Shown: positions 335-20,825 of the stretch, piece after piece
Position numbering within the stretch: the first letter of the stretch is position 1
How the letters are laid out: every line of letters begins with the position of its first letter
IMG/VR virus record: IMGVR_UViG_3300032322_003167
Span: 1 to 20,825 of that record
Length of the DNA: 20,825 nucleotides
Origin: a virus
Reading direction: 5' to 3' (one strand)
The notes under the pieces: model-generated
The model's database searches: none
Told to the model about the DNA's origin: nothing
What the model saw: the letters and a program-made list of their open reading frames with translations, nothing else
Translations under genes and position numbers: made by a program

Positions 335-984
335 TGTTCAACTTTGAAGATAAAAACACCAATGAGTATTTTGATACGAGGGTTTTTGATAATTTCTTTG
401 CAAACCCAGATGAGATTGCAGATATTGCAAACACCCAGTCATTCGCTCTAAGCAGCGGCAGTTTTCCTGGAAGAAGAACGACAGAGTTGGGGGTTTGCTG
501 TAGTGAGCTTAATCAAATCTTATTGCGAGAAATAGTAAAAAAGAATGCTGAACTTACCGGCTTGTCGCTAACTGCATATTTTCAAAAAATTCCGAATCTT
601 TCATTTGATGAATCACATATATCTATTGAGAATTCTGGCTGGATACACACCGATAATGCTATTTATTCTGGTGTTCTATATTTGAATAAAGATAGTCATA
701 ACTATGGTGGGACTTCATTCTACGAGCCACTAAAACTCACAAAAAATCCAGACATAGACATTAATCATTTCAAAAAGCAACACTACACGAATACTGAAGA
801 CGTAAACATTCAGGAGTACCGAGACTCAAAACTTAGATATTCTGCCTTGTTTGAAAAAACTGAGTCAATTGAGAATATCTATAATCGTCTAGTTCTGTTT
901 GATTCTAAAAAATGGCACAGCAACGACACGTTCGTAAAAGATGGAAGCGGTGAACGTCTTACCTTAATATTTTTTATGGGATGA
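328..984 (+). CDS. DUF6445-type putative 2OG-Fe(II) oxygenase
   Basis: The N-terminal part, with DNFFANPDEI followed by a SGSFPGRRT segment, matches the DUF6445 family pattern known in T4-like marine phages and some bacteria. The double-stranded beta-helix core has a plausible facial triad, H107-x-D109 (WIHTDN) and H197 (KWHSND), with R210 in RLTLIFF as the likely 2-oxoglutarate carboxylate ligand. A GGTSFYEP segment lies between them. It is therefore probably an iron- and 2-oxoglutarate-dependent hydroxylase of unknown substrate. The start is ambiguous: ATG at 328 overlaps the upstream gene by 7 nt, while a second ATG at 334 forms a TGATG junction with its stop. Its 3' end overlaps the convergent gene by 11 nt. 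Confidence 0.82.
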   Translation: MVMFNFEDKNTNEYFDTRVFDNFFANPDEIADIANTQSFALSSGSFPGRRTTELGVCCSELNQILLREIVKKNAELTGLSLTAYFQKIPNLSFDESHISIENSGWIHTDNAIYSGVLYLNKDSHNYGGTSFYEPLKLTKNPDIDINHFKKQHYTNTEDVNIQEYRDSKLRYSALFEKTESIENIYNRLVLFDSKKWHSNDTFVKDGSGERLTLIFFMG

Positions 985-1561
985 GATATTCTGGTACAAC
1001 ATCAAATATTAAATGAACCCTGTCCGTATCCCCATCATTAAATGCACCATGAGTTCTTAGGTTTGAAATCTCCCAACATTCACCAGCATTCATGAATACC
1101 TCACTTCCAGCAACCACGACAGAGCATTTATTATTGGTTGTGATGGGGATATGAAAACGCCTGCTTATTTCAAATAGGCGACCACTGTCTTTGTGTGGAT
1201 GGACGGTTGATTTGGCTGGGAGCCTCGCAAGCATCGCGCGTGCGACAAGTCCGTTTATTTTTTGTTCCATCATTTTTAGAATTGGAAGTATTAAATTGTT
1301 TGCTTCATGATTTTCACTTACTGTGTGAACAGAAAATGGTGGATTGAATAACGGAGCGGCTAAATCAATAACCCAAAAAACATTTGTCTCAGATTGTGCT
1401 AAACCAGAATTCTGGCGAGCATTATCAATATTCCACTCATCAGTGAATTTGTTAACAAGTATGGACAGTTCTGAAATATCAAAGTCATCAAAATGCACAA
1501 AATTAAAAGAGTCGTCTATTTTTTGTTGAAGTTTTGGGTATGCAGATTCAATCTTTTCCAT
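974..1561 (-). CDS. Aspartyl/asparaginyl beta-hydroxylase-like protein
   Basis: The C-terminal half matches the Asp/Asn beta-hydroxylase fold (PF05118-type): HPHKD supplies H123-x-D125, followed by RRFHIPI, then GECWEISNLRTHGAFN with H171 as distal iron ligand, and DRVHLIFDVV with R181 as probable 2-oxoglutarate ligand. Family members hydroxylate Asp or Asn side chains in proteins, or act on small molecules. At 195 residues it is close to a minimal catalytic domain with no membrane segment or signal peptide, so it should act in the cytoplasm. It is the last gene of the leftward series, 11 nt after its upstream neighbour, and its stop lies inside the end of the convergent DUF6445 gene. A paralogue with the same motifs lies at 8248-8829. 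Confidence 0.85.
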   Translation of the reverse strand: MEKIESAYPKLQQKIDDSFNFVHFDDFDISELSILVNKFTDEWNIDNARQNSGLAQSETNVFWVIDLAAPLFNPPFSVHTVSENHEANNLILPILKMMEQKINGLVARAMLARLPAKSTVHPHKDSGRLFEISRRFHIPITTNNKCSVVVAGSEVFMNAGECWEISNLRTHGAFNDGDTDRVHLIFDVVPEYLIP

Positions 1562-1572
1562 AAATATAAGTT

Positions 1573-2361
1573 CTAGTCAATAACCCCAAGTGTCCCAACC
1601 GGTACAAATTTTTGATATAAATTTTCCAATCCAACATCATTTACTAGACCCCTCAACCATGAGTACTCTTGTTCAATACTGGTGCTGTGACTGTCTACAT
1701 CAAGCATTGATATTGTCCCATGTCCAAACCAAGAAAGATACGCATATCTGATTCCGTCCGTAATTTCAGTAACTTCATGACACCCAGCAAAAGAAGATGG
1801 ATAGATTATTGCTGTTCCGTACTTTCTTGGAGCAGTGACACCCCACGGTCTGAACATTAAATCCCCTCCACTGAAATCATCGCTCAAAATAATGCCAGAT
1901 GTCAGCGTATTGTGCAGTGGGAATGTGTTAAGTGGAACATAGGAGTCGCCATCATAAGGGAGATTCGTATCACAATGTGGACCTATTGCTTGACCTCTCT
2001 CGTATTTAATGACATATCCCCTAGTTCTCCATTTTACCGTTTCCAGCACTGATGGGAATAGTTTGCAGTATTCAACCAAGCACCTATAAATAGAAGACTC
2101 AAGTTTCTTAACGATTTCCTTATCGCTTTCATTCATTTCTGGATAAACTAGATTTGAATAACGAGTGGGTGCTTTTTTATAATTACTCATGTCATATCTG
2201 TATCCACCGTCGCTTAAAAGAATATCGTCTTCCAGTTGCTGATAACTTTGTGGATTTGTTTTGCTTTGAAGATTTCCTAGATATGACGCAATATCATTTT
2301 TTTCAATATCTATTGCATCACTGAAAGCAACGATACCGTTTCCGAGATGCGTGATGTTCAT
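1573..2361 (-). CDS. 2OG-Fe(II) oxygenase, prolyl-hydroxylase-like (paralogue A)
   Basis: The protein starts with a HLGNGIVAFSDAIDI module shared with four neighbouring oxygenases. Next come a KWRTRGYVIKY segment, the iron motif H129-x-D131 (GPHCDTN), a SGGDLMF strand, the distal ligand H195 in CHEVTEI, and R205 in GIRYAYLSWF. This is the layout of the prolyl-4-hydroxylase-like branch (2OG-FeII_Oxy superfamily). The usual YLND motif before the GG strand reads ILSDD here, a small departure from its relatives. Its ATG overlaps the stop of the upstream paralogue (ATGA), so translation is coupled. The substrate is unknown. A C-terminal tail of about 45 residues after the barrel is not shared with the other paralogues. 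Confidence 0.88.
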   Translation of the reverse strand: MNITHLGNGIVAFSDAIDIEKNDIASYLGNLQSKTNPQSYQQLEDDILLSDGGYRYDMSNYKKAPTRYSNLVYPEMNESDKEIVKKLESSIYRCLVEYCKLFPSVLETVKWRTRGYVIKYERGQAIGPHCDTNLPYDGDSYVPLNTFPLHNTLTSGIILSDDFSGGDLMFRPWGVTAPRKYGTAIIYPSSFAGCHEVTEITDGIRYAYLSWFGHGTISMLDVDSHSTSIEQEYSWLRGLVNDVGLENLYQKFVPVGTLGVID

Positions 2362-3233
2362 GAGTGCATTGTCTTTACGAGCATGTATATGTGGCTGTTT
2401 TGTCCAATACCGACTTCATCAAGATAGTTTTTTAAATCCTGTCTAAGTGTTGGCATGTAGACATTTGTTGCAGTTCGCGCAACATCGGGGAATTTTGCTG
2501 GGTCGACTACATTCTCGTTAAAATTCTCATTAGGAGAACCATGTGAATACCAACCAAGGTAACTGTATCTACTTCCGCTTGTTACCGGAGTGACCTCATG
2601 GGCTGCAATAAAATTAGATGGGAACATCAATATGTCTCCAGTGTTTGGTTTGTAGTCAATGTCAAGATAGTTGAAGTAATGATGCCCACCTTCAAAATCA
2701 TCGTTCAGATATACAACACATGACAAGGTATTCTTTGTTGCAAGTTGGTCGCTTGGCTCTTCGTATCCATAAGCCCAATCGGCACTCGTGTCTGAGTGCG
2801 CTCCAAGGTATTTTCCACCGTGCTCAACAGAGTAACTAACTAGATGGCCTTTTACTTTCCACCACACGTTTTTGTACGCTAATGGAAACATTACGAAGTA
2901 TTTGAGAAGGTAGGAGTCCTTTGCTTCTTCTACTGAATTTAGAAAACTGCGTATTTCTGGGTCGTCTGTTCTGTGTATTTGAGAACCCCTTCTTGGCATT
3001 TCTTTCACTCCTGATTCGCCAAATATATATCCGCTTCTATTGATGTAAGCTGGTTTTCCTGATTCTGGGTCAATTGTCGGAGTGTACATTTCTGACCATT
3101 CGTTGCTTATTTGTTTTTCTGAAAAATCAACAACCCATGAGCAGTCAAAAGAAATAGCTTTTTCAAACAGAACTACACCTCCGCCAAGATGTCTTCCTGT
3201 CACGTTGTTAAATATTGCGTTTTTGCTGCTCAT
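2358..3233 (-). CDS. 2OG-Fe(II) oxygenase, prolyl-hydroxylase-like (paralogue B)
   Basis: After a short leader comes the shared HLGGGVVLFEKAI module (about residues 15-27). Then follow VWWKVKGHLVSY, H146-x-D148 (GAHSDTS), VVYLNDDFEGGHHYF, GDILMFPSNFIAAHEV with H212 as distal ligand, and R222 in SRYSYLGW. All residues expected for iron and 2-oxoglutarate binding are present, so an active dioxygenase is likely. The start lies 26 nt inside the end of the upstream paralogue and is preceded by a purine-rich AGAAGAGAAAG Shine-Dalgarno-like stretch. The stop overlaps the next ATG. A C-terminal extension of about 60 residues follows the barrel. The target is unknown; tail-fibre or host protein side chains are possibilities. 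Confidence 0.88.
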   Translation of the reverse strand: MSSKNAIFNNVTGRHLGGGVVLFEKAISFDCSWVVDFSEKQISNEWSEMYTPTIDPESGKPAYINRSGYIFGESGVKEMPRRGSQIHRTDDPEIRSFLNSVEEAKDSYLLKYFVMFPLAYKNVWWKVKGHLVSYSVEHGGKYLGAHSDTSADWAYGYEEPSDQLATKNTLSCVVYLNDDFEGGHHYFNYLDIDYKPNTGDILMFPSNFIAAHEVTPVTSGSRYSYLGWYSHGSPNENFNENVVDPAKFPDVARTATNVYMPTLRQDLKNYLDEVGIGQNSHIYMLVKTMHS

Positions 3234-4125
3234 TGTCTTTCTCTTCTATAGTCCCATTGCTTTTGTTTACCCTACCAAGCGGAAGTGTACAGTGAGTCTG
3301 ACTGTCATAGGATTCTTTATACTTATTTTTCAAATATTTTTTATAATCATCAAATATTTCAGGAATCCAAACCTGACCAGACATAGGGCTATCCAGTTTC
3401 TGAGCAGGAGATATCCCCCTGTTTAGGTCCTCTGAGCCATGAGAAAAATAAGAAATATAAGCAAAACGGAAGCCACTTTTAATCTCTAAAACCTCATGGG
3501 TTGCTAGATAATTTGACGGAAAAATAAGTAAATCACCAGCTTTTGGCTTATGACATATCCCAAGATACGCAAAATTTAATTCACCGCCGACAAAATCATA
3601 GCTATTTTCGTCAAACTCATCCCCTTCTATGGAATCATTTAAATACAAAATACACCCAACAACATGTCTAGTTGCTAGCTGCAGGTCTGGAATCGCACCT
3701 GGCTGATAGTTGACGTCATTGTCTGAATGAAAACCCATTGCGCTTCCAGGGCTGTATGAAACAACGTGTCCCTGCTCCTTCCACCATAGAGACGGAAGAA
3801 TCATTGGATACTTCTCTATATATTCGAGGAGTGAGTTGTAAATTGACTTTTCGCAATCTTGGAAGAACTTTTCATAAGTGCCAGCCACGTCGTTTTCAAT
3901 TAATTTATTGATTCTATTGACATGGTTTATTCTCTCCACCTCGTACCGGTGTCCGGAGCGATTTATTGCATGCAATGGTGTTCCGTTTTCATCATGGATT
4001 ACTGTGAAATCCTCAGAAACCACATTTTTCCTTAGCTTCATCAGGTATGGGACTAGAATAGATTTGTTAATTTTGATTGAATCCCTAAATAGAAGGACGC
4101 CACCACCAAGGTCTTCATGTGCCAT
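3208..4125 (-). CDS. 2OG-Fe(II) oxygenase, prolyl-hydroxylase-like (paralogue C)
   Basis: This 305-residue paralogue has the N-terminal DLGGGVLLFRDSI module, the LWWKEQGHVVSY segment, H133-x-D135 (GFHSDND), YLNDSIEGDE, a GGELNF strand, GDLLIFPSNYLATHEV with H210, and R220 in FRFAYISYF. An acidic insertion (about residues 166-178) separates the YLND strand from the GG strand, as in the paralogues at 4130 and 5753. Its hydrophilic end, rich in Glu, Lys and Asn, overlaps the start of the next paralogue by 26 nt. Translation begins 4 nt after the previous stop, with a weak AGAGTG ribosome-binding stretch. A cytoplasmic Fe(II)/2-oxoglutarate hydroxylase is the confident class; the substrate is unknown. 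Confidence 0.88.
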   Translation of the reverse strand: MAHEDLGGGVLLFRDSIKINKSILVPYLMKLRKNVVSEDFTVIHDENGTPLHAINRSGHRYEVERINHVNRINKLIENDVAGTYEKFFQDCEKSIYNSLLEYIEKYPMILPSLWWKEQGHVVSYSPGSAMGFHSDNDVNYQPGAIPDLQLATRHVVGCILYLNDSIEGDEFDENSYDFVGGELNFAYLGICHKPKAGDLLIFPSNYLATHEVLEIKSGFRFAYISYFSHGSEDLNRGISPAQKLDSPMSGQVWIPEIFDDYKKYLKNKYKESYDSQTHCTLPLGRVNKSNGTIEEKDNEQQKRNI

Positions 4126-4129
4126 ATTT

Positions 4130-5101
4130 TCACTCTATTGTATGGGTCGTTCCGTATTGAGTGACGCATCTATTTTGGAATACTGGATTCACACCTTGGT
4201 CCATGCCTTCAGGTTTTGCCCATAGGGAGTATTCAGAACGACAATAGCTTTCGTAGTCATCAAATATGTTTTCAAACCAAACAGGAGGACACCATTCTTC
4301 GCTCTTGTCAGCATCAGATATAACTATTCCGACCTTTTCATCAGAGCCACCTTGGCCAAAAAAAGTAAGATATGCGTACCTTATTCCGCCATCCATCCTT
4401 GAAACGCTATGCGCGCAGATATAGTTGGTGGGAAAGAATATTATGTCCCCAGCTTTTGGTGCGTAATCAATTCCAAGGTGATAAAACAGTAAATGGCCAC
4501 CTGCGAAGTTGCTTCCGTCAAGCTCGGTCTTTTCAACTGAATCATTAAAATAAACAAGAGCACCCATTGTCTGCCTAAGAGCGACCTGTCCTTTTGGCAT
4601 ATACCTGACACCACCAGTAACTTTGTAATTTGTGTCATTGTCTTGGTGCCAGCCGAGTTTTCCCTCGTCGTCATACCTGAGCACATGGCCCCTTGTTTTC
4701 CACCACAAGCTTCCAATTACAAGCGGAAACATATCAATGTATCGCAATAGGCATTTATAGATTGTGTCCTCAAGTTCGATGAAGTATTTTGCTACAAAAT
4801 CTGGAGTATCAGGATTTACTGGTGCAAGGAGCCTAACTGGAACACCAGGAATATCTGCTTCCCTATACCTAAAACCATCCTCATTGACGCCGTACTTGAC
4901 TCCATCTTCCTCATCAACAACGTACGACCACCTATCGGTGCTTGCTTGCTTTGCTTTTGAATCAATGTGACTTAGGATATCCTGACTGACTTTCGCAGCG
5001 CCTCTGAAAACAATAATCCCGTTTCCAAGGTCGTCAATTCTGTAGGATGAAATTTCTTTGAATTCATCTACTCCAATTTTTGGTGTTCCTGGAAATGCCA
5101 T
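4130..5101 (-). CDS. 2OG-Fe(II) oxygenase, prolyl-hydroxylase-like (paralogue D)
   Basis: This is the longest of the five close paralogues (323 residues from ATG at 5101). I prefer that ATG to an in-frame TTG two codons earlier because it is canonical and has GGTGG upstream. An extra N-terminal segment of about 24 residues precedes the DLGNGIIVFRGAA module. Then come LWWKTRGHVLRY, H152-x-D154 (GWHQDND), LVYFNDSVEK, GGHLLFYHLGIDY, GDIIFFPTNYICAHSV with H231, and R241 in GIRYAYLTFFGQG. All metal and co-substrate ligands are present. It follows the glutathione-peroxidase-like gene by 2 nt, so the two are probably translated together. The substrate is unknown. Confidence 0.87.
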   Translation of the reverse strand: MAFPGTPKIGVDEFKEISSYRIDDLGNGIIVFRGAAKVSQDILSHIDSKAKQASTDRWSYVVDEEDGVKYGVNEDGFRYREADIPGVPVRLLAPVNPDTPDFVAKYFIELEDTIYKCLLRYIDMFPLVIGSLWWKTRGHVLRYDDEGKLGWHQDNDTNYKVTGGVRYMPKGQVALRQTMGALVYFNDSVEKTELDGSNFAGGHLLFYHLGIDYAPKAGDIIFFPTNYICAHSVSRMDGGIRYAYLTFFGQGGSDEKVGIVISDADKSEEWCPPVWFENIFDDYESYCRSEYSLWAKPEGMDQGVNPVFQNRCVTQYGTTHTIE

Positions 5102-5103
5102 AA

Positions 5104-5736
5104 TCAAATCACCACCGAACGTACAGCTTCACTTATTGTCCATGGAGAACCAATTGTCAGTGGCTCTTTAGCCATTGGCCACTCCTGCCAGCTAAATCTT
5201 CCTATATTTTCTCCTGATGAGCTAACCAAGAATTTTTCCCAATTATGAGGAATTCGTGCCATTGCCTGATTGGCTAAGTTTTGTCCTGCTTTCGCCGACT
5301 CGCTCATATCGGCCATGTTGTCGTTATTCCTTCTGAGCCATGGGCCCTTGAGATGTGTGTATAACGGGTGCTCATTTTCGCCATTTACATCAATTTTTTC
5401 TGTTATTGGAAAATTTACAAACGAATAGTTGGTTTTTATAAAATCATAAATATCTGGATTTTGCAGTGGCTCCATTCCGCCAAACTGGTTGCATGGAACA
5501 CCTATTACAGAAAAGTTTTTATTCTTAAACATGTCGTGGAGCTGTTGTAATTCCCAAAGCTGTCTGCTCGTTCTTGCAAAAGACCAAATACTACTGCATT
5601 GTGGGACGTAGCCAGCTTTGCTGCATATATTTACAATTAGACATGTTTTCCCCTGCATGTCTCCAAGGAGGTTTGGCCTGCCATCAATATATGAGATATT
5701 TATGTCAAAAATTGAACTAGTTGAAGAATCCTGCAT
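5104..5736 (-). CDS. Glutathione-peroxidase-fold protein lacking the peroxidatic Cys
   Basis: The thioredoxin-fold peroxidase pattern is clear: an N-terminal FDINISYIDG strand, a TCLIVNICSKAGYVPQC block equivalent to the GPx NVASxCG motif, GVPCNQFGGMEP (GPx FPCNQFG, Gln84 kept), KIDVNGENEHPLY, and HNWEKFLV in place of WNFxKF (Asn165 kept, Trp replaced by His164). The residue aligning with the peroxidatic Cys/Sec is Ala41; a Cys appears three residues earlier (C38) and another at C47. It is therefore probably not a standard peroxidase. It may be a re-wired thiol protein, a disulfide carrier or a binding protein. It lies between oxygenase genes, so a link to oxidative chemistry or iron redox state is plausible but unproven. 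Length (210) is slightly above the usual 160-200. Confidence 0.82.
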   Translation of the reverse strand: MQDSSTSSIFDINISYIDGRPNLLGDMQGKTCLIVNICSKAGYVPQCSSIWSFARTSRQLWELQQLHDMFKNKNFSVIGVPCNQFGGMEPLQNPDIYDFIKTNYSFVNFPITEKIDVNGENEHPLYTHLKGPWLRRNNDNMADMSESAKAGQNLANQAMARIPHNWEKFLVSSSGENIGRFSWQEWPMAKEPLTIGSPWTISEAVRSVVI

Positions 5737-5752
5737 GACGCGAGTATACCAG

Positions 5753-6607
5753 TTACTGCGTATGGTCTTTGTCGCGACGTTTGAAATTCAACATATTTGC
5801 TTTACGTTCACTTGGGTCTGGGTATTTTTTTAAGATATGTGATTCATAGTCTTCAATTATTGAAGGCAGCCACCATTGGCCGCTTGTATCAATCCATTCA
5901 TTTTGCACCCTTGGGCTTATGCCCCTTCCCTCATCTGGGGAGCCCTGCGCAAACCAGGTTAAATAGGAGTAACGACAACCTCGAGTAACTTCTTTTATTT
6001 CATGGGCTCCTATGTAATTTGCTGGCATCATCACTATTGTTCCTTTTTGTGGTTTTACATCAATACCAAAATATGGAATTGTCATGTGTCCACCTGAAAA
6101 AGAGAAGTCAACGTCGTCTTCGTCTTCCTCAATACAGTCATTTAGATAGATTAATGCCGATACAACATTTCTTGTTGCGTGCTCTGTCTGTGGCGAGGAG
6201 CCATAACGGTAATTAATGTCATTGTCGCAGTGAAACCCAAGTCTTCCGCCCTTTTCGTAACAGAGGACATGCCCTCCACTCTTCCACCACAGACACTGAA
6301 GAATTGCTGGAAACATTTCTATATATTCAAGAAGTGCGGCATATATTGCGTCATCACATTTTTTGAAAAAAGGGTGATTTAGGTCTTGAACCCTAATCGG
6401 AGCAGCAGCAGCTAATTCAAGACTGTAAATAAATCCACCATTATTAATCGCATGGATAGGGTTGCCATCATCGTCATACACATATGTGAAATTTTGTTTT
6501 TTCCACCGTTCCTTGAGTTTGTCTACATATCCAATCACTTCAGTCTGTGGAATATCTATTGCATTTTCGAATACAACAGTTCCGCCTCCAAGATGTATTC
6601 CGTTCAT
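5753..6607 (-). CDS. 2OG-Fe(II) oxygenase, prolyl-hydroxylase-like (paralogue E)
   Basis: The ATG at 6607 is chosen over an in-frame GTG three codons upstream because it overlaps the previous stop as ATGA, as elsewhere in this operon, and places HLGGGTVVFENAIDI at the extreme N-terminus like its relatives. Motifs in order: LWWKSGGHVLCY, H126-x-D128 (GFHCDND), LIYLNDCIEED with a strongly acidic loop, SGGHMTIPYFGID, GTIVMMPANYIGAHEI with H202, and R212 in CRYSYLTWFAQG. All iron and 2-oxoglutarate ligands are intact. It is closest in layout to the paralogues at 3208 and 4130, which also carry the acidic insertion. It should be a cytoplasmic hydroxylase of unknown target. Confidence 0.88.
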   Translation of the reverse strand: MNGIHLGGGTVVFENAIDIPQTEVIGYVDKLKERWKKQNFTYVYDDDGNPIHAINNGGFIYSLELAAAAPIRVQDLNHPFFKKCDDAIYAALLEYIEMFPAILQCLWWKSGGHVLCYEKGGRLGFHCDNDINYRYGSSPQTEHATRNVVSALIYLNDCIEEDEDDVDFSFSGGHMTIPYFGIDVKPQKGTIVMMPANYIGAHEIKEVTRGCRYSYLTWFAQGSPDEGRGISPRVQNEWIDTSGQWWLPSIIEDYESHILKKYPDPSERKANMLNFKRRDKDHTQ

Positions 6608-7146
6608 TTGACGCACCAGAATTGAGGGACTATATATCTGTAGCCTTTTTCAACTTTTTCAACTAGATGAGTATATTTTTCTGACGATGGAAAGATTATA
6701 AGACATCCAGCTGGTGGTTTTATTGATAGATTTAGATGTGGAAATCTAAGCAGACCACCCAGGTAGTCATCATTGAGATAGAGAACACTACTGATGTCTC
6801 TTGATTCATGACCATTTGGGGTTTTGTTTTTAAAATGGTCATCTGGCATTGCATCAAAGTGCGGGTTTAGAAGCTCCCCCTCGGAATATACGGTCACACT
6901 GTAGTTTGGTTCATAATAGACTTTTGTCAGGAAACGAGATTCCACCTCGGAATGAATTGAATTCACGTATTTGCTGATTATTTTAAATATATCTGGATTA
7001 ATATTCTCGTCTAGTATTTTTGACGGTGTTCTATATTTGTGATTATTTTCTGAATGGTCCAAATCGGTTAATTGAGCATTGCCAATGAGCAGTGATAACT
7101 CCTTAACATCACCATCGTTGATGAAGTTATTACATATTGCAATCAT
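6604..7146 (-). CDS. Small 2OG-Fe(II) oxygenase (180 aa)
   Basis: This is a compact prolyl-hydroxylase-like domain without the LGGG or WWK modules of its neighbours. It has NYSVTVYSEGELLNPHFDA with H96-x-D98, SSVLYLNDDYLGGLLRFP, then CLIIFPSSEKYTHLVEKV with H160, and R170 in GYRYIVPQFW. The ATG at 7146 is preferred: it is preceded by a GGTGGATGGG stretch, whereas in-frame TTG (7161) and GTG (7158) codons would place the start only a few bases after the upstream stop. The stop overlaps the next ATG. The sequence type (YLNDD, GG strand, FPS) is the standard phage 2OG-FeII_Oxy_3 form. The substrate is unknown. Confidence 0.85.
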   Translation of the reverse strand: MIAICNNFINDGDVKELSLLIGNAQLTDLDHSENNHKYRTPSKILDENINPDIFKIISKYVNSIHSEVESRFLTKVYYEPNYSVTVYSEGELLNPHFDAMPDDHFKNKTPNGHESRDISSVLYLNDDYLGGLLRFPHLNLSIKPPAGCLIIFPSSEKYTHLVEKVEKGYRYIVPQFWCVK

Positions 7147-7169
7147 CGTCCCATCCACCAAAATACTAT

Positions 7170-8246: not shown

Positions 8247-8247
8247 T

Positions 8248-8829: not shown

Positions 8830-8867
8830 TTGTTTTCCTCACGATTTAATTAGCACTATTTTACAGC

Positions 8868-9578: not shown

Positions 9579-9584
9579 TGTTTT

Positions 9585-9591: not shown

Positions 9592-9617
9592 ATTTGAGAT
9601 GATTGTTGCCTTAAAGC

Positions 9618-9623: not shown

Positions 9624-9653
9624 CTATCAGCAAAATACCAAACATATCACTCA

Positions 9654-11934: not shown

Positions 11935-11961
11935 AGAAACTTTATATTAGTTTCTGTCAAA

Positions 11962-12690: not shown

Positions 12691-12693
12691 ATT

Positions 12694-15171
12694 TTATGCC
12701 GAAAGGTCTCCAACTACTACCCAAGTATCTGTTGCTCTCTTTATGAGCGTAACATATGACCACTGCCCTCTGACTTTAAGTCCTGGTGTTCCGTTTACGG
12801 TTACACCAGAACCAGCGACAATCGTAGTCTGTCCGGAGCCAGTCTGGAGAACGTTGACCTGGGAGCCAACAGGGAAAGCAACAGAGCTGTTTGGTGGAAC
12901 TGTCAAGTTATTTGCAGAACCCACGTTCATTTCAACAATCTTGTTTTTATCAGCCAATACAAGTGTGTATGAGGCAGTTTGAGCATTTGTTGACACGTCG
13001 GCAAGTTTTGTGAGGTCAATGGCGGCTGACGAGCTAATATCACTGTTTGCAATTGTCCCATCTGCAATCATCGCGCTTGTAATAGTTCCAGATGGAGCAC
13101 TAAATGTTCCAGTAAATGAAGCATTATTTATTGGTGCATAGAACGAGCCATGCTGGCCGTCAAGAAGGTCGGCATTAAGGTTTGTAACTGCAGTGCTTGA
13201 TGAAACTGATAATGGAGCAGTGCCTGTTGCAATTGTGCTTTCAAATACTTCTGCAACTACTGGAGCTGCTGAGTAACTAGCATGACTAGTATTGATTGGG
13301 TCTTCTGGCTCTGGGGTGTATGAGTCAAAGAACTTAAACTTTCCATCAGTTGCGTCTCTAAAAAGACCGGCATGTCGATATGTTCCATCGTTGTAGTTTC
13401 CTACCCAACCAAGGTCTGGATTCGTAATCGTTGAACCATCGTTGAGGAAGATAAATGTATCTTCAATTGCGAGGACTGTTTCGTTGATTGTTGTCAATGT
13501 TCCATGAACACTGAGGTCCCCACCAACAATAAGGTCGCCAGTTGTTTCAACTCTTGCAAATGTGACCGATGAAGATGTTCCTACCGCCTGACCAATTGCA
13601 ATGGTCGGACTTGAACCTTCTGCTGGTGTGTGTGTAACCGTGATTCCAGTTCCAGCCGTTATGTCGTTTACATAGTTCCCAGTTGTATCGGTTCCTAGGT
13701 TGATTGGGTCATTAACCCATGCAGTTCCGTTCCACTTCAAGAAATCACCAGACGAAGGAGAAGGAACGGTTACGTTAAACAAACCATCAAGATTTGTCGC
13801 GGCAATAGCTGAATCCGCATATGACTGAGCTGCAGTTTGTGCAGACGATGCCGCACCATAGGCATCGTATGTATTCGCGGTTACGGCAATCGATGCCGTA
13901 GAGCCCTCACCTGGAGTATGGGTTATTGTTATCCCAGTACCAGCGGACACCCCAGACATGTAGTTTCCAGTTGTGTCTGTTCCAAGGACGACTGCGCTTT
14001 CTGCGATTGTTGCTGAAATATTGACATCTTGCGAGCCATTAAACGATACAGAGCCAGTAACATCGCCAGAAAGAGTTATTGTTCTTGTGTTTTGAAGTGT
14101 TGTTGCAGTGGATGCATTTCCAGTGACGTTGCCGGTCAGATTTGCATTTACCGATGTAAATGTTGGCGTTGCACTAGAAGAAACATCTTGTCCGATAGCA
14201 ATTGATGGTTGAGAGCCTTCTCCGCTGTTGTTGGTTATTGTAATACCAGTACCAGCGTACAGGCTTGCCACATAGTCGCCAGTTGTGTTTGCGCCAAGCT
14301 GGATTGCTGTTTCTTCCCAATTGCCGTTGTTGTACCTTAGGAAGGTGTTGCTTATTGGCGATGCGCTAACATTGACGTCATTAATGTCTATAAGATTTAC
14401 TGTGCCCATTGCGGTTGAATGGTCGTACGCATCATGTCGGGCATTTGTCATGTACTGTGTGTGGTCGTCGTGATTCAGGTCACTCAACGAACCATGGTCC
14501 ATTATGGTTAAATAATTTGTTCCATCATTAGTTAATTCCCAATTATCTGTTGACTCATTCCAACGAAGAGACACATTTGTAGAGGAACCGCGCTCAACTT
14601 CAATTCCTGCATTTTCTGTTGGCGCACCAGTTGCGTTGTTGTTGAGGACGATAATATTGTCGTCAACAGTGAGTGTTTCGGTGTTAATGGATGTAGTTGT
14701 GCCTGAAACAGTAAGGTTTCCACCTACAACAACGTCACCAGTTGTTGTAACTTTTCCAAAAGTTACAGAAGCGCTTGTTGCAACAGATTGACCAATTGCG
14801 ACAGTTGGTGTTGCTGCTTCGCCGCTGTTGTTGCTAAGGCTTACACCAGTTCCAGCTACCAGGGACTCAACATAATTTCCAATAGTGTCTGTTGCTAGGT
14901 TGATTGGGTCGTTAACCCATGCAGTTCCGTTCCATCGAAGAACATCGCCGTTTTGTGCTGATGTGATTGTCACATCACCAAGGTCATTTAAACTTGCATT
15001 ATCAATAGAGCCATAAAAATATGATAACGAGTTCCATGCTGTAGAGCCATCACCCAACTTTATCTTGTTTGTATTTGTCTCCAAGCCGATTTCTCCGCCA
15101 GCAAGAATTGGGTTTTGAGAGGTCCAATTAGATGACGTGTCTCTGCGGAATAATATTTTTTTATAAGCCAT
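12694..15171 (-). CDS. Long repetitive tail-fibre protein (825 aa)
   Basis: The N-terminus (about residues 8-52) carries a LFRRDTSSNWTS then LAGGEIGLETNTNKIKLGDG module. This is the N-terminal module common in cyanophage and other phage receptor-binding fibres (Mtd N-terminal-type). It is followed by four copies of a repeat around LGTDTTGNYV, AGTGITITHTPGEG and IAIGQ, a GNLTVSGTTT/ENAGIEVERG module (about 151-217), DLNHDDHTQY, a DGTYRHAGLFRDATDGKF module, and LNADLLDGQHGSFYAP. The last 100 residues, with NLTVPPNSSVAFPVG and IVAGSGVTVNG, are shared with the 1330-residue fibre and probably form a common tip or trimerisation domain. It is translationally coupled (TAATG) to the small protein upstream. 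A structural role in host recognition is likely. Confidence 0.88.
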   Translation of the reverse strand: MAYKKILFRRDTSSNWTSQNPILAGGEIGLETNTNKIKLGDGSTAWNSLSYFYGSIDNASLNDLGDVTITSAQNGDVLRWNGTAWVNDPINLATDTIGNYVESLVAGTGVSLSNNSGEAATPTVAIGQSVATSASVTFGKVTTTGDVVVGGNLTVSGTTTSINTETLTVDDNIIVLNNNATGAPTENAGIEVERGSSTNVSLRWNESTDNWELTNDGTNYLTIMDHGSLSDLNHDDHTQYMTNARHDAYDHSTAMGTVNLIDINDVNVSASPISNTFLRYNNGNWEETAIQLGANTTGDYVASLYAGTGITITNNSGEGSQPSIAIGQDVSSSATPTFTSVNANLTGNVTGNASTATTLQNTRTITLSGDVTGSVSFNGSQDVNISATIAESAVVLGTDTTGNYMSGVSAGTGITITHTPGEGSTASIAVTANTYDAYGAASSAQTAAQSYADSAIAATNLDGLFNVTVPSPSSGDFLKWNGTAWVNDPINLGTDTTGNYVNDITAGTGITVTHTPAEGSSPTIAIGQAVGTSSSVTFARVETTGDLIVGGDLSVHGTLTTINETVLAIEDTFIFLNDGSTITNPDLGWVGNYNDGTYRHAGLFRDATDGKFKFFDSYTPEPEDPINTSHASYSAAPVVAEVFESTIATGTAPLSVSSSTAVTNLNADLLDGQHGSFYAPINNASFTGTFSAPSGTITSAMIADGTIANSDISSSAAIDLTKLADVSTNAQTASYTLVLADKNKIVEMNVGSANNLTVPPNSSVAFPVGSQVNVLQTGSGQTTIVAGSGVTVNGTPGLKVRGQWSYVTLIKRATDTWVVVGDLSA
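13695..14934 (-). repeat. Direct repeat pair within the 825-residue fibre gene
   Basis: 40-base copies at 13695-13734 and 14895-14934 differ at one position (13711). They encode the same NGTAWVNDPINL segment. They are offset by exactly 1200 bases (400 codons), so an exchange between them would keep the reading frame. Confidence 0.85.
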
Positions 15172-15353
15172 TAGGCATCGCCTCCATCAGCTGTGAGAAC
15201 TTCTGCAGTCACTTCTGTGCCCGAGAAACCTGCATCAATTATTACATACTTTGTAGACCTGACCCATGAAGAACCAGTCCATACAAGCAGTTTTCCTGCA
15301 GCAAAAAACTCATCATTGATTGACGGGTTTGATGGCAAAGATATTCGTGACAT
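15171..15353 (-). CDS. Small fibre-associated protein (60 aa)
   Basis: This 60-residue protein opens with ISLPSNPSINDEF and contains KLLVWTGSSWVRS, the pattern (SxPSxN, then W-x-G-x-x-W) of short proteins or N-terminal modules that accompany phage tail fibres. It ends in TADGGDA. The start is preceded by AGGA with good spacing, and the stop shares a base with the ATG of the 825-residue fibre. A second gene with the same order (at 19354-19530) precedes the other fibre, so the small protein plus fibre pair looks like a duplicated cassette. A connector, chaperone or fibre-attachment role is plausible but unproven. Confidence 0.78.
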   Translation of the reverse strand: MSRISLPSNPSINDEFFAAGKLLVWTGSSWVRSTKYVIIDAGFSGTEVTAEVLTADGGDA

Positions 15354-15361
15354 ATTTTATC

Positions 15362-18300
15362 CTAACTACTAGACAGGTCTCCGTAGATATACCATTCATT
15401 TGTCGCTCGTTTTACTAACTTTGCCCATGAATATCGAGCAGCTAGATAATTTCCTGGTGTGTAACGAATAGTTACACCGTTTTGAGCAACAATTTGAGTT
15501 TTTCCTGTTCCATACTGAAGAACTGTTACTTCTGTTCCCACAGGGAAGGGCACTGAAGAATTTGTTGGAATTGTTACAGTATTTTCTGAGCTGACGCTCA
15601 TTTCAATTGTTTTTGACTTGTCAGACAAAACAAGTGTGTAATTTTCTGTTTTAATTGACAAATTAGCATTCAGTACGTCCTCAATGTCTGTTGATTCCCA
15701 CTCTGTTCCGTTGTACGCAAGAACCTGCAGTGGTGTCGCATCTTGAACAAGCACGTCAACGAGGTCACCAAGTCCCTCAACCGAAGAAGGTGGTGTATTT
15801 TGCTGCAACCAGCTTGAGTCATAGTAAATGTATGTATCAAGTGATGATGAATCAAACCACAGGTCTCCCTCGGCTGGCGAACCAGGAGCAGATGCTGATA
15901 CGGTTATTGCACTTGTTTCCAGAGATGCTGAAACCCAATTTGAACCATTGAACTTCAAGTAATCACCGGTAATTGGCGTTGAAACAAGAACGTTATTCAG
16001 GTCATCAAGTGTTGCGTTTATTGATATTGTTGGATTTGAGCCTTCTCCTGGAGTGTGTGAAACACTTATTCCAGTGCCAGCCGTAACATCGTTTAAGTAA
16101 TTACCTGTTGTATCCGTGCCCAAAGCTACGGAGTTTGGCTGAATCGTTGCAGTGATGCTTGCATTTGCAGAACCATCAAAAGAAACAGAACCAGAAACAT
16201 CTCCAGTCAACGAGATATTCCGTGCTGTTTGTAATGTTGAAGCCGTTGATGCATTACCAATCAGTGGCGCTGTGACCGCTGCAAACTGTACTGACGAAGA
16301 AGTCGCTACAGCTTGTCCGATAGCGATGGTTGCATTTGAACCTTCGCCGGGTGTGTGTGTAATCGTTACGCCAGTGCCTTGTGTAAGGTCTGACATATAG
16401 TTACCTACAGTGTCGGTGCCTAGATTGATTGGGTCATTAATCCATTCCGACCCATCGTATTTTAGGAAATCACCAGATTGAACTCCACCAGATACCGTGA
16501 ATGAACGAACTGGACGAACTCGGTTTGAAAAGTTCTTCCAAGTAGTGTTGGAGGCTCCATCATCAAAGTACTGCACCCATACCTGCGTCTCGTCGTATTC
16601 GGAGGAACTCCAGTAGTCACTAGTAGTAGTAAAACCACCAACTGCAGTCTTTTGCGTGTATAACTGATTTAGTTCATCTTTTGATGGTAGGAACCAATCA
16701 GAAAATCCACCGTATGTGTAATCTGCGCAGTAAGCGGCAGCAGAAGATGCAGCAATATTTCCTGCTTGGGCAACAATATCTATAGTGTTTTGTGCGCCAG
16801 TCCCAATTGCAGTTCCGTCTGCTCCAGAAACTGCTGTGGTTTGATTTGAATTAACATCCGTAGCCCAAGTTCTGTTTACATCAGGGTTTCCAGATGGGGC
16901 TGCCTCAAAGTATCTTCCAGTAGTATTTCCTGCCGTAGATGGCGTAATAAATATTTTCCCACCAGCAGGTCCAGTGTCGCCAATGGCATATGTAGGAGCG
17001 GTCTCAATTGTTACATCTGAAAGATTGTTCAACGTTGCATTTAGAGCAACAGAAGCAGATGAACCTTCACCTGGTGTATGGGTAACTGAGATTCCAGTTC
17101 CAGCTACTACGTTATTTACATAGTTTCCTGTCGTGTCTGTCCCAAGAGCAATGCTATTTGGTTGGATGATTGTTGATATAGAAACATCTTGTGAACCATC
17201 AAAAGAAACAGAACCAGAAACATCGCCAGTCAATGAGATAGCCCGTGCTGTTTGCAATGCTGAAGCTGTTGATGCATTTCCAACTAGTGGCCCAGTAACG
17301 GCCGCAAAGGTCACTGAAGAAGAAGTTCCTACAGCCTGACCGATAGCGATTGTTGGGCTTGAGCCCTCGGCAGGAGTGTGCGTGACAGTGACACCAGTAC
17401 CAGCAGTTATATCGTTAACATAGTTTCCAGTCGTGTCTGTTCCGAGTTCAATAGTCCCAAGTGCAGCGATTTCCCCGTATGTGGTGCCGTCGTTCGTGAA
17501 CTCCCATTGGTCGTTTGTTTCATTCCAGCGAACTGCAACATTTGCGGAATCGCCACGCTCTATTTCAATTCCAGCGTTTAGCGTTGGGATGCCAGTGGCG
17601 TTGCTATTAAGAACTACAGTGTTATCTTCAACAGACAGTGTCTGCGTATTGAGTGTCGTGGTGTCTCCATTTACCGTTAGGTTTCCACCAATTACGACAT
17701 TTCCAGTTGTTTCAAGTCTCGCAAAAGTAACAGAAGCAGATGTTGCTACATCTTGTCCGATAGAAATTGTTGGGGTAGCAGTCTCTCCGCTATTGTTCGC
17801 AAGGCTTACACCAGTTCCTGCAACCAATGACGATACATAGTCTCCGCTTGTGTCTGCGCCAAGCGACACGCTATTCGCGCCGATTGTTGTTGAGATGTCA
17901 ACATTGCCAGTTCCGTTAAAAGAAACCGAGCCTGAAACATCTCCGCTAAGCGCAATTACTCTTGCGGTCTGTAGTGCTGTCGCGGTGTCTGCGTTTCCAG
18001 TTACATTTCCAGTGACTGGAGCAAAGACATGGGCAAATGTTACCGATGCCGAAGTTCCAACTGCTTGACCAATGGCAATGGTCGGACTTGAACCCTCTCC
18101 TGGAGTATGCGTTACAGTAACGCCAGTTCCGCCGCTTACATCAGAAACATAGTTTCCTGTCGTCTGCGTACCAAGGGCAACTGTATTGCTCGGAAGACTT
18201 ACGATTCCAGTAAATGTCGGGCTGTCAATTGGCGCGTAGTACGAGCCATCTTGGCCATCAAGTTTGTCGGCGTTGAGGTTGGTTACGACTGTCGAAGAAG

Positions 18301-19354
18301 AAACCGACATTGGCGCAGTACCGGTTGTCTGAGTGAGTATCAGACTTTCTGCTTGGAATCTTGCATCACTATATGTTGCATCAGACGTATTAATTGGTGA
18401 TATTGGCTCTGGTTCGTAGCCTTCAAAAACCTTGAAGATTCCATCACTTGAATCTCGGAATAATCCAGCATGGCGATATGTTCCGTCGTCATAGTTGAAT
18501 GCAATACCCATGTCTGGGTTTGCGCTTGCGCTATTTGCGTTTAGGTAAATAAAAGCCGTATCAACATCTAGGTTTGTTTCATTGAGGCGAGTGATAGTTC
18601 CCTGAACCTCCATGTCGCCCTGAACAATAAGCCGAGCAAATGTCACCGACGCGCTAGTCGCAACATCCTGTCCAATTGCGATTGTTGCGTTTGAACCCTC
18701 TCCAGGTGTATGGGTGATAGTAACGCCAGTACCTTGGGTTAGGTCTGACATATAGTTGCCTGTTGTGTCGGTACCAAGGGCAACAGAATTTGGTTGGACT
18801 GTTGCAGTGATATTAATGTTCTGCGAACCATCAAATGAAGCAGAACCAGAAAGGTCGCCGCCAAGACTTATTGACCTAGCAGTTTGTAATGCAGAAGCGG
18901 TAGAAGCATTTCCAGTGAGCGATGAAGTTACATTGGCAAACGTTACAGATGAGCTTGTCCCAACAGCCTGACCAATAGCAACAGTCGGTGTGGCCGCTTC
19001 GCCGGTATTGTTCGTGAGTGTTACGCCAGTTCCTGCAACTAAACTTTCTACGTAGTTACCAACTGTGTCTGTAGCAAGGTTTACTGGGTCGTTAATCCAC
19101 ACTGAGGCAGAGCCGTTATAGCGCAGGAAATCGCCGTTTTGAACACTTGTAATTGTTACATCACCAATCGAATCAAGCGTTGCTCCAGGAAGGTTGCCAA
19201 CGAAGTACGACAAAGAGTTCCATGCAGTTGAACCTGTGCCGAGCTTAATCTTGCCAGTGTCTGTTTCGACACCAAGTTCACCTTGAGCGAGAGTTGGGTT
19301 AACGGATGTCCAGTTGGCAGCCGTGTCTCTCCTGAGTTGAATTTGTGATGCCAT
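15362..19354 (-). CDS. Very long repetitive tail-fibre protein (1330 aa) with an internal lectin-fold domain
   Basis: The N-terminus (IQLRRDTAANWTS, LAQGELGVETDTGKIKLG) matches the module of the 825-residue fibre. The body has eight copies of the TDTTGNYV, AGTGVTVTHTPGEG, IAIGQAVGTS unit, interleaved with LQTARAISLTGDVSGSVSFDGS units, a LNAGIEIERG module and a NYDDGTYRHAGLFRD module. Residues about 790-952 are different: GDTGPAGGKIF, SDWFLPSKDELNQLY, YWSSSEYDETQVWVQYF and NRVRPVRSF, a DUF1566-type C-type-lectin-like domain. A PGSPAEGDLWFD segment and the shared C-terminal tip follow. It starts on the TAA of the 58-residue gene (TAATG). It is probably the main receptor-binding fibre; the lectin domain is the best candidate for ligand contact. 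Confidence 0.88.
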   Translation of the reverse strand: MASQIQLRRDTAANWTSVNPTLAQGELGVETDTGKIKLGTGSTAWNSLSYFVGNLPGATLDSIGDVTITSVQNGDFLRYNGSASVWINDPVNLATDTVGNYVESLVAGTGVTLTNNTGEAATPTVAIGQAVGTSSSVTFANVTSSLTGNASTASALQTARSISLGGDLSGSASFDGSQNINITATVQPNSVALGTDTTGNYMSDLTQGTGVTITHTPGEGSNATIAIGQDVATSASVTFARLIVQGDMEVQGTITRLNETNLDVDTAFIYLNANSASANPDMGIAFNYDDGTYRHAGLFRDSSDGIFKVFEGYEPEPISPINTSDATYSDARFQAESLILTQTTGTAPMSVSSSTVVTNLNADKLDGQDGSYYAPIDSPTFTGIVSLPSNTVALGTQTTGNYVSDVSGGTGVTVTHTPGEGSSPTIAIGQAVGTSASVTFAHVFAPVTGNVTGNADTATALQTARVIALSGDVSGSVSFNGTGNVDISTTIGANSVSLGADTSGDYVSSLVAGTGVSLANNSGETATPTISIGQDVATSASVTFARLETTGNVVIGGNLTVNGDTTTLNTQTLSVEDNTVVLNSNATGIPTLNAGIEIERGDSANVAVRWNETNDQWEFTNDGTTYGEIAALGTIELGTDTTGNYVNDITAGTGVTVTHTPAEGSSPTIAIGQAVGTSSSVTFAAVTGPLVGNASTASALQTARAISLTGDVSGSVSFDGSQDVSISTIIQPNSIALGTDTTGNYVNNVVAGTGISVTHTPGEGSSASVALNATLNNLSDVTIETAPTYAIGDTGPAGGKIFITPSTAGNTTGRYFEAAPSGNPDVNRTWATDVNSNQTTAVSGADGTAIGTGAQNTIDIVAQAGNIAASSAAAYCADYTYGGFSDWFLPSKDELNQLYTQKTAVGGFTTTSDYWSSSEYDETQVWVQYFDDGASNTTWKNFSNRVRPVRSFTVSGGVQSGDFLKYDGSEWINDPINLGTDTVGNYMSDLTQGTGVTITHTPGEGSNATIAIGQAVATSSSVQFAAVTAPLIGNASTASTLQTARNISLTGDVSGSVSFDGSANASITATIQPNSVALGTDTTGNYLNDVTAGTGISVSHTPGEGSNPTISINATLDDLNNVLVSTPITGDYLKFNGSNWVSASLETSAITVSASAPGSPAEGDLWFDSSSLDTYIYYDSSWLQQNTPPSSVEGLGDLVDVLVQDATPLQVLAYNGTEWESTDIEDVLNANLSIKTENYTLVLSDKSKTIEMSVSSENTVTIPTNSSVPFPVGTEVTVLQYGTGKTQIVAQNGVTIRYTPGNYLAARYSWAKLVKRATNEWYIYGDLSSS
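16170..17224 (-). repeat. Direct repeat pair within the long fibre gene
   Basis: Exact 32-base copies at 16170-16201 and 17193-17224, embedded in longer blocks of strong similarity encoding the same TGDVSGSVSFDGS-type unit. The offset is 1023 bases, a whole number of codons, so recombination between them would delete or duplicate the intervening lectin domain in frame. Confidence 0.85.
16499..16989 (-). other. DUF1566/C-type-lectin-like domain inside the long fibre
   Basis: About 163 residues unlike the surrounding repeats. The order GGKIF, RYFEAAPSG, WATDV, TIDIVAQAG, GGFSDWFLPSKDELNQLY, DYWSSSEYD, RVRPVRSF is the standard DUF1566 (Lcl C-terminal) layout, a fold related to formylglycine-enzyme and C-type lectin domains. 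Related folds carry the variable regions of diversity-generating retroelement targets, but no reverse transcriptase or template repeat lies in this window. Confidence 0.82.
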
Positions 19355-19530
19355 TACGCAGAACCTCCGTCAATTGCTGGTATTCCACCATAAGTAGAAG
19401 ACGCCAGACCACCATCAATATTAACACTTGAATAAATAAGGACCCATTTTTCTCCGTCGTAGCGCCATGAACGGCCTACGGCTGAGTAACTCTGATTAAG
19501 AGTCGGTGAATCTGGAAAATTAATAGCCAT
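19354..19530 (-). CDS. Small fibre-associated protein (58 aa)
   Basis: I translated this short frame directly. It starts MAINFPDSPTLNQSYSAVGR, then SWRYDGEKWVLIYSSV, and ends PAIDGGSA. The FPxSPxxNQxY and W-x-Y-D-G-x-x-W patterns are typical of small phage tail-fibre accessory proteins. The ATG shares a base with the stop of the upstream fibre (TAATG), and its own TAA shares a base with the ATG of the 1330-residue fibre, so it is locked between two coupled genes. It has the same position, size and ending (DGGxA) as the 60-residue protein at 15171-15353, pointing to a duplicated two-gene cassette. Function is probably structural or assembly-related. Confidence 0.82.
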   Translation of the reverse strand: MAINFPDSPTLNQSYSAVGRSWRYDGEKWVLIYSSVNIDGGLASSTYGGIPAIDGGSA

Positions 19531-20825
19531 TATCTAACCTGCGTTACTGTAACTATGGATGAAGGAACTGCTGGGCGAGCAGGGTTTGATTGCTCACCAG
19601 AAGCAATTACTCTCATGTTTGTATCTGGAGACTGAAGCATGATTTGAACATAGTCATTAGCAGCAAGTGTCAGAACAAAGTTCCAGGAGGCAAGGTACTT
19701 TCCATTATTTCCAAGCACTGTAACTTGCGTGTTTGAATTTGGGATATTTGTTCCATTTTTAGCAAACCAAATGTTTACGAGGTCATTACTGCTGTCTGTT
19801 TTGTCTAACTGTGCAGAAAACTGAATGTTGTACACACCAGCATTTGCAACAGTAATTCGAGAGCCAGAGACAATTGAAACCCCAACCGCTTCTGCCGTTG
19901 TGTTAAGTGGGAGCGCATAAGCGGTCGTAGCGCTAGTCAGTAATAGGTCTGTGGTGTCATAGAAAGAACCGTAGTACCCACTGAAAGTAGAAGTTCCTTT
20001 ATAGGCGGTTGTCTGAACTGTGTTGTCATGAAAAGTTATTCCAGAACCAGATTGTTCTAGTTGAATACCAGAAGAGTCAATTACTGTGCTCAGCACACCT
20101 TCATACTGCCCGCTAGGCGTTGTGTAGAAACGAATTTCCGTTGGGGTATCGTTTGCTTCAAAGTCTTCTTTTGCATAAAAATCAACAAACACTGGAGGGT
20201 CATCTCCAGCAATCCCAAAGTCAGCGCCAGGTCTCCAGCCAGCGCCAGTGATTCTGAATAGTGGACCAGTTCTTGCAGCAGTTGGAGAAGCAGATGTTCC
20301 AGCAGCATGTCGTCCAGCCATCTGGCTGAAAACAGAATTTCCATAACTATCATTGACAATTCTACTTGTTAAGTTGTCATGACCTGTTATATGAACCATT
20401 CCACCATTGTTTACTGGAGGGGAAAAAGTTCCAACATTGTTTCCAATAATCGTCAATACTGATGATTTATTTGGATTCTGGTATGAAGATGTAATAAAAA
20501 GTTGACCTTCTGGGTCAACTCTTAAGATTCCACCAGTTGATACTGATGCTGTGCTTTCAACGATTAATCCACCAGATTGAACTCGCAGGAAGTCTTCTTG
20601 ATTACTCAATGTAATCGTTGGACCGCCATCTTGTGAAAGTATTTTTAATGATGATGCACCAACCCATACTTCGTTATATGGACTAGCAGAAGAGCCAAGA
20701 GATACTGATGAACTCAATGGAATCATGTCGCCCGCTAGATAAACAAGGCCTGTTCCTTGTGGGTCAAGATACAGGTCATCTCCAGTGTTATATACATCTG
20801 GTTTGTTTTCTATATAGTCAGCAGC
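19530..20825 (-). CDS. Tail-fibre protein with C1q-like C-terminus (5' end beyond the window)
   Basis: The frame stays open through the right edge: 33 codons precede the ATG at 20726 and read ENKPDVYNTGDDLYLDPQG and VYLAGDM, so that ATG is internal and the gene is truncated by the window. The visible 431 residues include PLSSSVSLGSSASPYNEVWVG, a segment frequent before fibre tips in T4-like cyanophages. A middle part contains GGILRVDPEG and IRFYTTPSGQYEG. The last 140 residues (LLLTSATTAYALPL, SRITVANAGVYNIQFSAQLD, NIWFAKNGTNIPN, YVQIMLQSP) form a C1q/TNF-like jelly-roll, a common trimeric phage receptor-binding tip. The gene is coupled by TAATG to the 58-residue gene. Confidence 0.82.
   Translation of the reverse strand, partial: AADYIENKPDVYNTGDDLYLDPQGTGLVYLAGDMIPLSSSVSLGSSASPYNEVWVGASSLKILSQDGGPTITLSNQEDFLRVQSGGLIVESTASVSTGGILRVDPEGQLFITSSYQNPNKSSVLTIIGNNVGTFSPPVNNGGMVHITGHDNLTSRIVNDSYGNSVFSQMAGRHAAGTSASPTAARTGPLFRITGAGWRPGADFGIAGDDPPVFVDFYAKEDFEANDTPTEIRFYTTPSGQYEGVLSTVIDSSGIQLEQSGSGITFHDNTVQTTAYKGTSTFSGYYGSFYDTTDLLLTSATTAYALPLNTTAEAVGVSIVSGSRITVANAGVYNIQFSAQLDKTDSSNDLVNIWFAKNGTNIPNSNTQVTVLGNNGKYLASWNFVLTLAANDYVQIMLQSPDTNMRVIASGEQSNPARPAVPSSIVTVTQVR

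Follow-up and report, generated by a model that had tools for sequence, protein, structure and literature searches.

The virus record IMGVR_UViG_3300032322_003167 of IMG/VR is a genome fragment whose whole 20,825 bases form the window analysed here, and it carries an island of 2-oxoglutarate (2OG)-dependent oxygenase genes beside tail fibre genes. This island is best explained as a virion-modification cassette built around a fibre-associated protein with PPxF repeats, and we propose, with a probability of roughly two in three, that its prolyl 4-hydroxylase (P4H)-like enzymes hydroxylate the PPxF tail of that protein. The candidate substrate (11962-12690; as for all window genes below, on the minus strand unless stated otherwise) is an FN3 protein (fn3, 2.5e-11) ending in exactly 11 C-terminal PPxF units. 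Its gene begins 3 bp after a tail fibre gene (12694-15171) that encodes an Mtd_N N-terminus (PF18454, 2.9e-11) and a shared C-terminal domain. An earlier reading of the letters alone (the sequence-only reading) had suggested that this phage hydroxylates and sulfates its own adhesins. Open reading frame calling and profile searches of the window proteins (Pfam, PHROGs) bore out its gene list and positions. They assigned 11 genes to the 2OG oxygenase superfamily, eight of which are prolyl-hydroxylase-like, two Asp/Asn-type and one DUF6445. The eight P4H-like genes, five of them tandem paralogues, had been under-reported in the sequence-only reading. The remaining island genes encode a glutathione peroxidase (GPx)-fold protein, a DUF6065 protein, two sulfotransferases, the FN3-PPxF protein and three fibres.

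PPxF anchor loci were collected from IMG/VR by a DNA pattern alone, with no use of the enzymes, and control anchors were collected with a pattern for Mtd_N fibres; P4H-like genes were detected with a profile built from the window proteins. All counts for PPxF and Mtd_N loci are among the matches listed, and co-occurrence was counted in loci of at least 5 kb. This showed a P4H-like gene in 72 of 93 PPxF loci versus 10 of 95 Mtd_N control loci, and a DUF6065 gene in 52/93 versus 5/95 (Fisher p about 5e-21 for P4H, run with 71/93 and therefore slightly conservative, and about 4e-15 for DUF6065). Co-occurrence across phage genomes, which the sequence-only reading had put forward as a check, was therefore found. 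Longer records gave the same picture, with PPxF in 36 of 41 records of at least 30 kb that carry P4H arrays versus none of 19 long control records, and the enzymes therefore track the PPxF repeat and not fibres in general. The P4Hs that adjoin PPxF form 7 clusters at 40% identity and 11 at 50%, so the pairing is not that of one recently amplified lineage.

The association has a direction. Of the P4Hs nearest to PPxF, 68 lie downstream and 2 upstream; the median distance is 308 bp, and 58 of 71 share the strand of the PPxF gene. Loci were also gathered from the enzyme side, where a profile of the five tandem window paralogues gave hundreds of matches, of which 80 loci were kept; in these P4H-anchored loci the P4H is downstream of PPxF in 46 of 46. 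Of the C-terminal-type PPxF arrays followed by at least 3 kb of sequence, 41 of 50 have a P4H encoded in the next 3 kb (5 of 46 controls), and on contigs with a single P4H that gene is at most 1 kb downstream of PPxF in 13 of 18, when about 4.9 would be expected. This pattern bears on the proposal that phage 2OG oxygenases are auxiliary metabolic genes acting in host 2-oxoglutarate and nitrogen metabolism, or hydroxylases of host proteins such as EF-Tu, whose adjacency to fibres is incidental to a variable-gene hotspot. 2OG oxygenases are numerous in marine phages, and a role in host nitrogen metabolism has been proposed for them (PMC3037559); a metabolic role has likewise been proposed for cyanophage enzymes (PMC9602691), and the model of one window enzyme has a Pseudomonas putida P4H with EF-Tu among its closest fold matches (see below). 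However, such roles predict no directional adjacency to one repeat class, against the observed 68 to 2, and P4H genes are rare beside ordinary fibres (10/95), which makes this explanation unlikely.

The repeat itself is constrained. In 152 distinct arrays, found by a search that left x free, an F, Y, H or W occupies this position in 1453 of 1465 internal units, whereas adjacent units differ at 42% of their third codon positions; the search pattern itself enforces complete identity at the first and second codon positions, and this identity carries no weight. Since x stays aromatic or His despite third-position divergence, the PPxF repeat is kept at the protein level. Forty-three of the arrays have FK as their exact end. 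In 57/79 and 22/25 loci the C-terminal domain of the window fibres is encoded by the gene just upstream of PPxF, and with the enzymes downstream this gives the cassette order fibre, PPxF, modifying enzymes. In relatives the full order is fibre, PPxF, optional accessory enzymes (GPx-fold protein, and sulfotransferase or GT60-type N-acetylglucosamine (GlcNAc)-transferase), N- and/or M-type P4H, DUF6065 and further P4H paralogues.

A conserved upstream fibre gene would also suit an arrangement in which the P4Hs modify other virion proteins, such as long fibres or baseplate parts, and PPxF is an unmodified aromatic-proline rod or an assembly tag of the same fibre module; the excess of P4H paralogues over PPxF genes points the same way. 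Yet Mtd_N fibres without PPxF rarely have a P4H (10/95; 5/46 within 3 kb), so the P4H tracks PPxF and not the fibre class, and we consider this arrangement quite unlikely.

A stricter (PP[YF]F)4 pattern found only three stretches in 84,980 bacterial and archaeal genomes, and the two inspected carry the viral cassette; a bacterial origin of PPxF was rejected on these grounds. The contigs concerned (L338, L339 and L340) belong to bacterial metagenome-assembled genomes (Verrucomicrobiales and Gammaproteobacteria), and L338 and L339, which carry the cassette, look like phage sequence in bacterial bins. A separate form of the array was seen in loci L111 and L152, where mid-chain PPxF is followed by a tail that starts CIDQDTPI or CISPDG and recalls the beginning of a Hint/intein sequence; neither locus has a detected P4H.

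The enzymes resemble prolyl hydroxylases in their motifs and, for the M-type, in modelled fold. Five of the eight P4H-like genes, D (1573-2361; PF13640, 6.8e-06), E (2358-3233; 3.6e-13), F (3208-4125; 1.6e-07), G (4130-5107; 1.8e-08; its TTG start is a mechanical call, with an ATG just inside) and I (5753-6616; 2.8e-11; the query for relatives), encode tandem paralogues with 28-41% mutual identity, and are accompanied by J (6604-7161; PF13640, 4.7e-12), M (8868-9578; PF13640, 7.7e-11) and N (9715-10380, plus strand; phrog_61, 1.5e-13). Alignment of catalytic motifs placed the HxD motif, the distal His and the basic residue in all eight proteins, so that decayed duplicates do not account for the island. 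Among 65 M-type homologues the Fe ligands H127, D129 and H180 are invariant and Lys190, the 2OG anchor, is near-invariant; collagen-type P4Hs likewise use a lysine at this position. The corresponding N-type residues H131, D133, H191 and R201 are invariant in 36 homologues.

PDB sequence searches matched the M-type protein to prolyl 4-hydroxylases and a lysyl hydroxylase. An AlphaFold2 model was made of this protein, one of the eight window P4Hs (predicted local distance difference test score 89.2), and it has the double-stranded beta-helix fold of peptidyl prolyl hydroxylases. Its best fold matches are the PBCV-1 collagen P4H (5c5t; Foldseek 6.4e-11), the P. putida P4H with EF-Tu, the Chlamydomonas P4H with (Ser-Pro)5 (3gze; Z 19.8, 2.2 Å over 172 residues) and the PHD2/HIF prolyl hydroxylases, so that, judged by its predicted structure, the M-type enzyme is closest to collagen and peptidyl prolyl hydroxylases. 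It is a core enzyme of the cassette and adjoins DUF6065 in many loci. The nearest solved relatives of the N-type protein by sequence are prolyl 3-hydroxylase 1 (1.5e-07) and a Bacillus anthracis P4H, and this type supplies the nearest P4H downstream of PPxF more often than any other class (62/112). The relatives of both types are peptidyl hydroxylases and a protein substrate fits, whereas the substrate of the paralogue group, which is closest to PKHD-type proteins, is less certain.

Some other 2OG oxygenases act on sugars, nucleotides or phage DNA bases. One window paralogue has weak Tet_JBP similarity (0.015), some PHROG matches carry DNA-endonuclease labels, and carbohydrate-family sulfotransferases are encoded nearby. 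Those labels fall on the 2OG domain and seem to be noise in the annotation, and with peptidyl hydroxylases as the nearest solved relatives of the M- and N-types we judge such a chemistry very improbable here. Action of the prolyl hydroxylases on the phage's own PPxF protein, as the sequence-only reading had suggested, thus has strong independent genomic support from co-occurrence, directional adjacency, fibre context and fold. We infer from this pattern that PPxF is the substrate, and any choice of the modified proline within a unit would be part of the same inference.

In the proposed mechanism, the P4Hs would act during late gene expression. Drawing on O2, Fe(II) and 2-oxoglutarate, they would convert prolines of the C-terminal PP(aromatic)F tail to hydroxyproline, either ahead of fibre assembly or while it proceeds. 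The modified residue might then either stabilise or stiffen the PPxF tail, or anchor a sugar or sulfate added by a neighbouring transferase. The second option would amount to a hydroxyproline glyco- or sulfo-protein pathway, in which exchangeable transferases, GT60 enzymes in some phages and sulfotransferases in others including that of the window, decorate the PPxF hydroxyprolines; we offer this extension tentatively and hold it to be the less probable part of the proposal. The decorating transferases of the window would be its two sulfotransferases.

These two enzymes are encoded by adjacent genes, sulfotransferase 2 (11134-11934; PF03567, 2.8e-06) directly downstream of the PPxF gene and sulfotransferase 1 (10335-11162; PF03567, 1.4e-05) beyond it. 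Alignment showed 3'-phosphoadenosine 5'-phosphosulfate (PAPS)-binding motifs in both: HIPKTGGTS and HINKTGGTS as 5'-phosphosulfate-binding motifs and RNPxxRxxS and RDPxxRxxS as 3'-phosphate-binding motifs, sulfotransferase 1 having HIPKTGGTS and VRNPxxRxxS. G17, R77 and S85 are invariant across 15 homologues. In 17 PPxF loci with sulfotransferases, all 17 of these genes are on the same strand and 16 were counted downstream. The best Pfam match of the window pair is Sulfotransfer_2 (PF03567) and the nearest solved structure is a heparan-sulfate 6-O-sulfotransferase, which makes tyrosine a less likely acceptor than a sugar or hydroxyl group. The sulfation suggested by the sequence-only reading therefore fits the gene order, with the sulfotransferases adjoining PPxF, while its tyrosine variant is not favoured by this carbohydrate-type family; some component of the cassette may plausibly be sulfated.

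Glycosyltransferases of PF11397, which we take to be the GT60 family, recur in related cassettes. Five PPxF-anchored loci have such a gene on the same strand, 0.5-2.7 kb beyond PPxF in the downstream direction, and in contig L176, with no P4H detected, a PF11397 gene is the one after PPxF. Overall, PF11397 is present in 16 of 50 cassette records versus 1 of 19 controls, some copies being 10-14 kb away, and its link to PPxF is infrequent and suggestive. None of the 20 window proteins scanned matched PF11397, so a GT60 transferase encoded together with the hydroxylase, as in a pathway of the Skp1 type, is seen only in relatives and not in the window itself. The characterised GT60 enzyme Gnt1 adds GlcNAc to hydroxyproline of Skp1 and requires prior prolyl hydroxylation (PMC6939170).

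Several points weigh against hydroxylation of PPxF by these enzymes. The support is gene neighbourhood and not chemistry, and the loci are phylogenetically related and hence non-independent, with control phages drawn partly from other lineages and counts taken among the matches listed. About a fifth of the PPxF loci of at least 5 kb, mainly those with mid-chain repeats, have no detectable P4H, and PPxF can therefore exist without a P4H nearby. The P4H genes outnumber the need of one repeat class, the window sulfotransferases sit between PPxF and the P4Hs, and the N-type gene of the window lies on the other strand. P4H-like genes occur commonly in phages and may serve targets other than PPxF. 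Finally, only 4 of 43 loci with collagen-like GPP phage fibres include a P4H, and proline-rich fibres therefore do not generally need one.

The same count led us to reject a P4H pairing general to any proline-rich fibre. The four P4Hs found at GPP fibres all share the strand of the fibre gene and follow it at -14 to 718 bp. As a separate observation, the marine single-cell virus AG-345-F15 (L368, 4461-6696) has a P4H-like gene that begins 47 bp after the end of a collagen-like GPP gene, which suggests a parallel pairing of the collagen type.

The proposed PPxF cassette resembles several known systems in part. As in the Skp1 pathway of Dictyostelium and Toxoplasma, in which PhyA is followed by the GT60 enzyme Gnt1, some related phage cassettes combine a prolyl hydroxylase with a GT60-family GlcNAc-transferase beside PPxF. 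The Skp1 target, however, is a cytoplasmic ubiquitin-ligase subunit in oxygen sensing, whereas the phage candidate is a fibre-associated repeat protein. The PBCV-1 collagen P4H and the B. anthracis P4H are the closest folds or sequences to the M-type and share its Fe/2OG motif. Collagen P4Hs act on Gly-X-Y, and the window candidate, (PPxF)11, is not a collagen. The fold match to Chlamydomonas P4H-1 provides a likeness in the use of short proline-rich repeats as P4H substrates. Hydroxyproline-rich glycoproteins, whose proline-rich repeats are hydroxylated and possibly then decorated, offer an analogy to phage PPxF. They and the substrates of Chlamydomonas P4H-1 differ in being eukaryotic secretory proteins with Ser-Pro or Pro-rich motifs, not PP-aromatic-F. 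T4-like cyanophages such as S-SCSM1 likewise hold many divergent PF13640-type genes in one phage, in this case 24 2OG oxygenase genes without an assigned function (PMC9602691), but in the sampled relatives of the island no T4 hallmark protein was seen within the stretches covered.

Viral contigs L009 and L010 share the gene order of the island, with 77-78% identity for the query P4H, and its arrangement is therefore beyond chance. In L009 a further fibre and a second PPxF protein are encoded on the far side of the island, and in L010 the island continues into a PhyH-like protein and another P4H (together at 11610-13193), and a third sulfotransferase. Further along L010 there is an FN3 protein with a polyproline tail (13898-14728).

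Among the accessory genes of the window, the DUF6065 protein (7170-8246; PF19541, 8.9e-44) is a conserved cassette member by co-occurrence. In an AlphaFold2 model its N-terminal domain has a dUTPase-like beta fold, with dUTPases as fold matches at Z of about 11. With its conserved residues not matched to a catalytic site, DUF6065 as an enzyme was set aside, and no function is claimed. The window lineage adds a C-terminal beta-barrel of ~120 residues to this protein, while most homologues (233-240 aa) have no barrel. The redox-fold protein of the sequence-only reading is the GPx-fold protein (5104-5736; PF00255, 1.7e-24), which recurs in related cassettes.

The two Asp/Asn beta-hydroxylase-type proteins, AspH1 (974-1561; PF05118, 5.8e-15) and AspH2 (8248-8829; 7e-17), score 55.9 and 62.2 bits against a curated cut-off of 22.6 and are thus members of this family. 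AspH genes occur in only 5 of 101 PPxF loci among the matches listed, and hydroxylation of Asp and Asn in the fibre repeats, also suggested from the letters alone, received no specific support. The DUF6445 protein (328-984, plus strand; PF20043, 4.8e-15; phrog_1644, 4.3e-29) has weak similarity to 2OG-Fe(II) oxygenases (PF13640, 5.1e-05) and the PHROG label 'minor coat protein', and could represent either a further oxygenase linked to the virion or a family misnamed by that label. Its gene falls just short of the range (974-20825) given in the sequence-only reading. PDB sequence searches with AspH2 and the DUF6445 protein found no solved relative. Two further fibre genes lie upstream of the PPxF module. 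The longest fibre (15362-19354) has an Mtd_N domain (PF18454, 8.1e-16) and an internal Lcl_C domain (PF07603, 1.4e-12; residues 865-950), possibly a receptor-binding or variable module, and a third fibre-like protein (19530-20825), matched only by phrog_24754 (0.0087), is cut by the contig end.

The lineage is uncultured. No homologues of T4 gp17, gp18, gp20 or gp23 were found among the window genes, and sampling of two long related records gave, within the parts covered, no match to structural or replication proteins of T4 or cyanophages except MazG; a PF07068 search was uninformative, as its positive control gave no signal. PHROG matches in related records include a baseplate wedge, ribonucleotide reductase, DnaB and a helicase, and the baseplate wedge indicates a contractile tail. 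Neither DUF6065 nor the FN3-PPxF protein has a match in 50,697 annotated phage records, and no PPxF was found in the neighbourhoods of P4H-like genes in the isolates and single-cell viruses inspected (S-H9-1, Melnitz-3, S-CAM7 and two single-cell viruses). Marine-phage 2OG oxygenases have widespread structural similarity to human EGLN3 (PMC12774648). In the open-licence literature we found no report that ties phage 2OG oxygenases to a PPxF fibre substrate or describes such phage prolyl hydroxylation, and DUF6065 is absent from it. The cassette is real, conserved and apparently undescribed.

Few unexplained genes are as common in aquatic phages as those for 2OG-Fe(II) oxygenases, which number up to 24 per isolate and are usually filed as metabolic. 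Their directional pairing with one defined repeat gives phage 2OG oxygenases a testable role in virion modification. In many uncultured aquatic phages the gene of a fibre-partner PPxF protein is followed by prolyl hydroxylase genes, and in some also by those of sugar- or sulfate-transferring enzymes, which suggests that these phages decorate their own fibre tips. Any effect of this on receptor binding or immune escape, as the sequence-only reading had envisaged, is speculation. If hydroxyproline-linked sugar or sulfate is indeed carried on the fibres, host recognition would have a post-translational layer that is invisible in the genome sequence, phage adsorption would depend on oxygen and iron, and the fibre tip would have a tunable, non-genetic surface chemistry.

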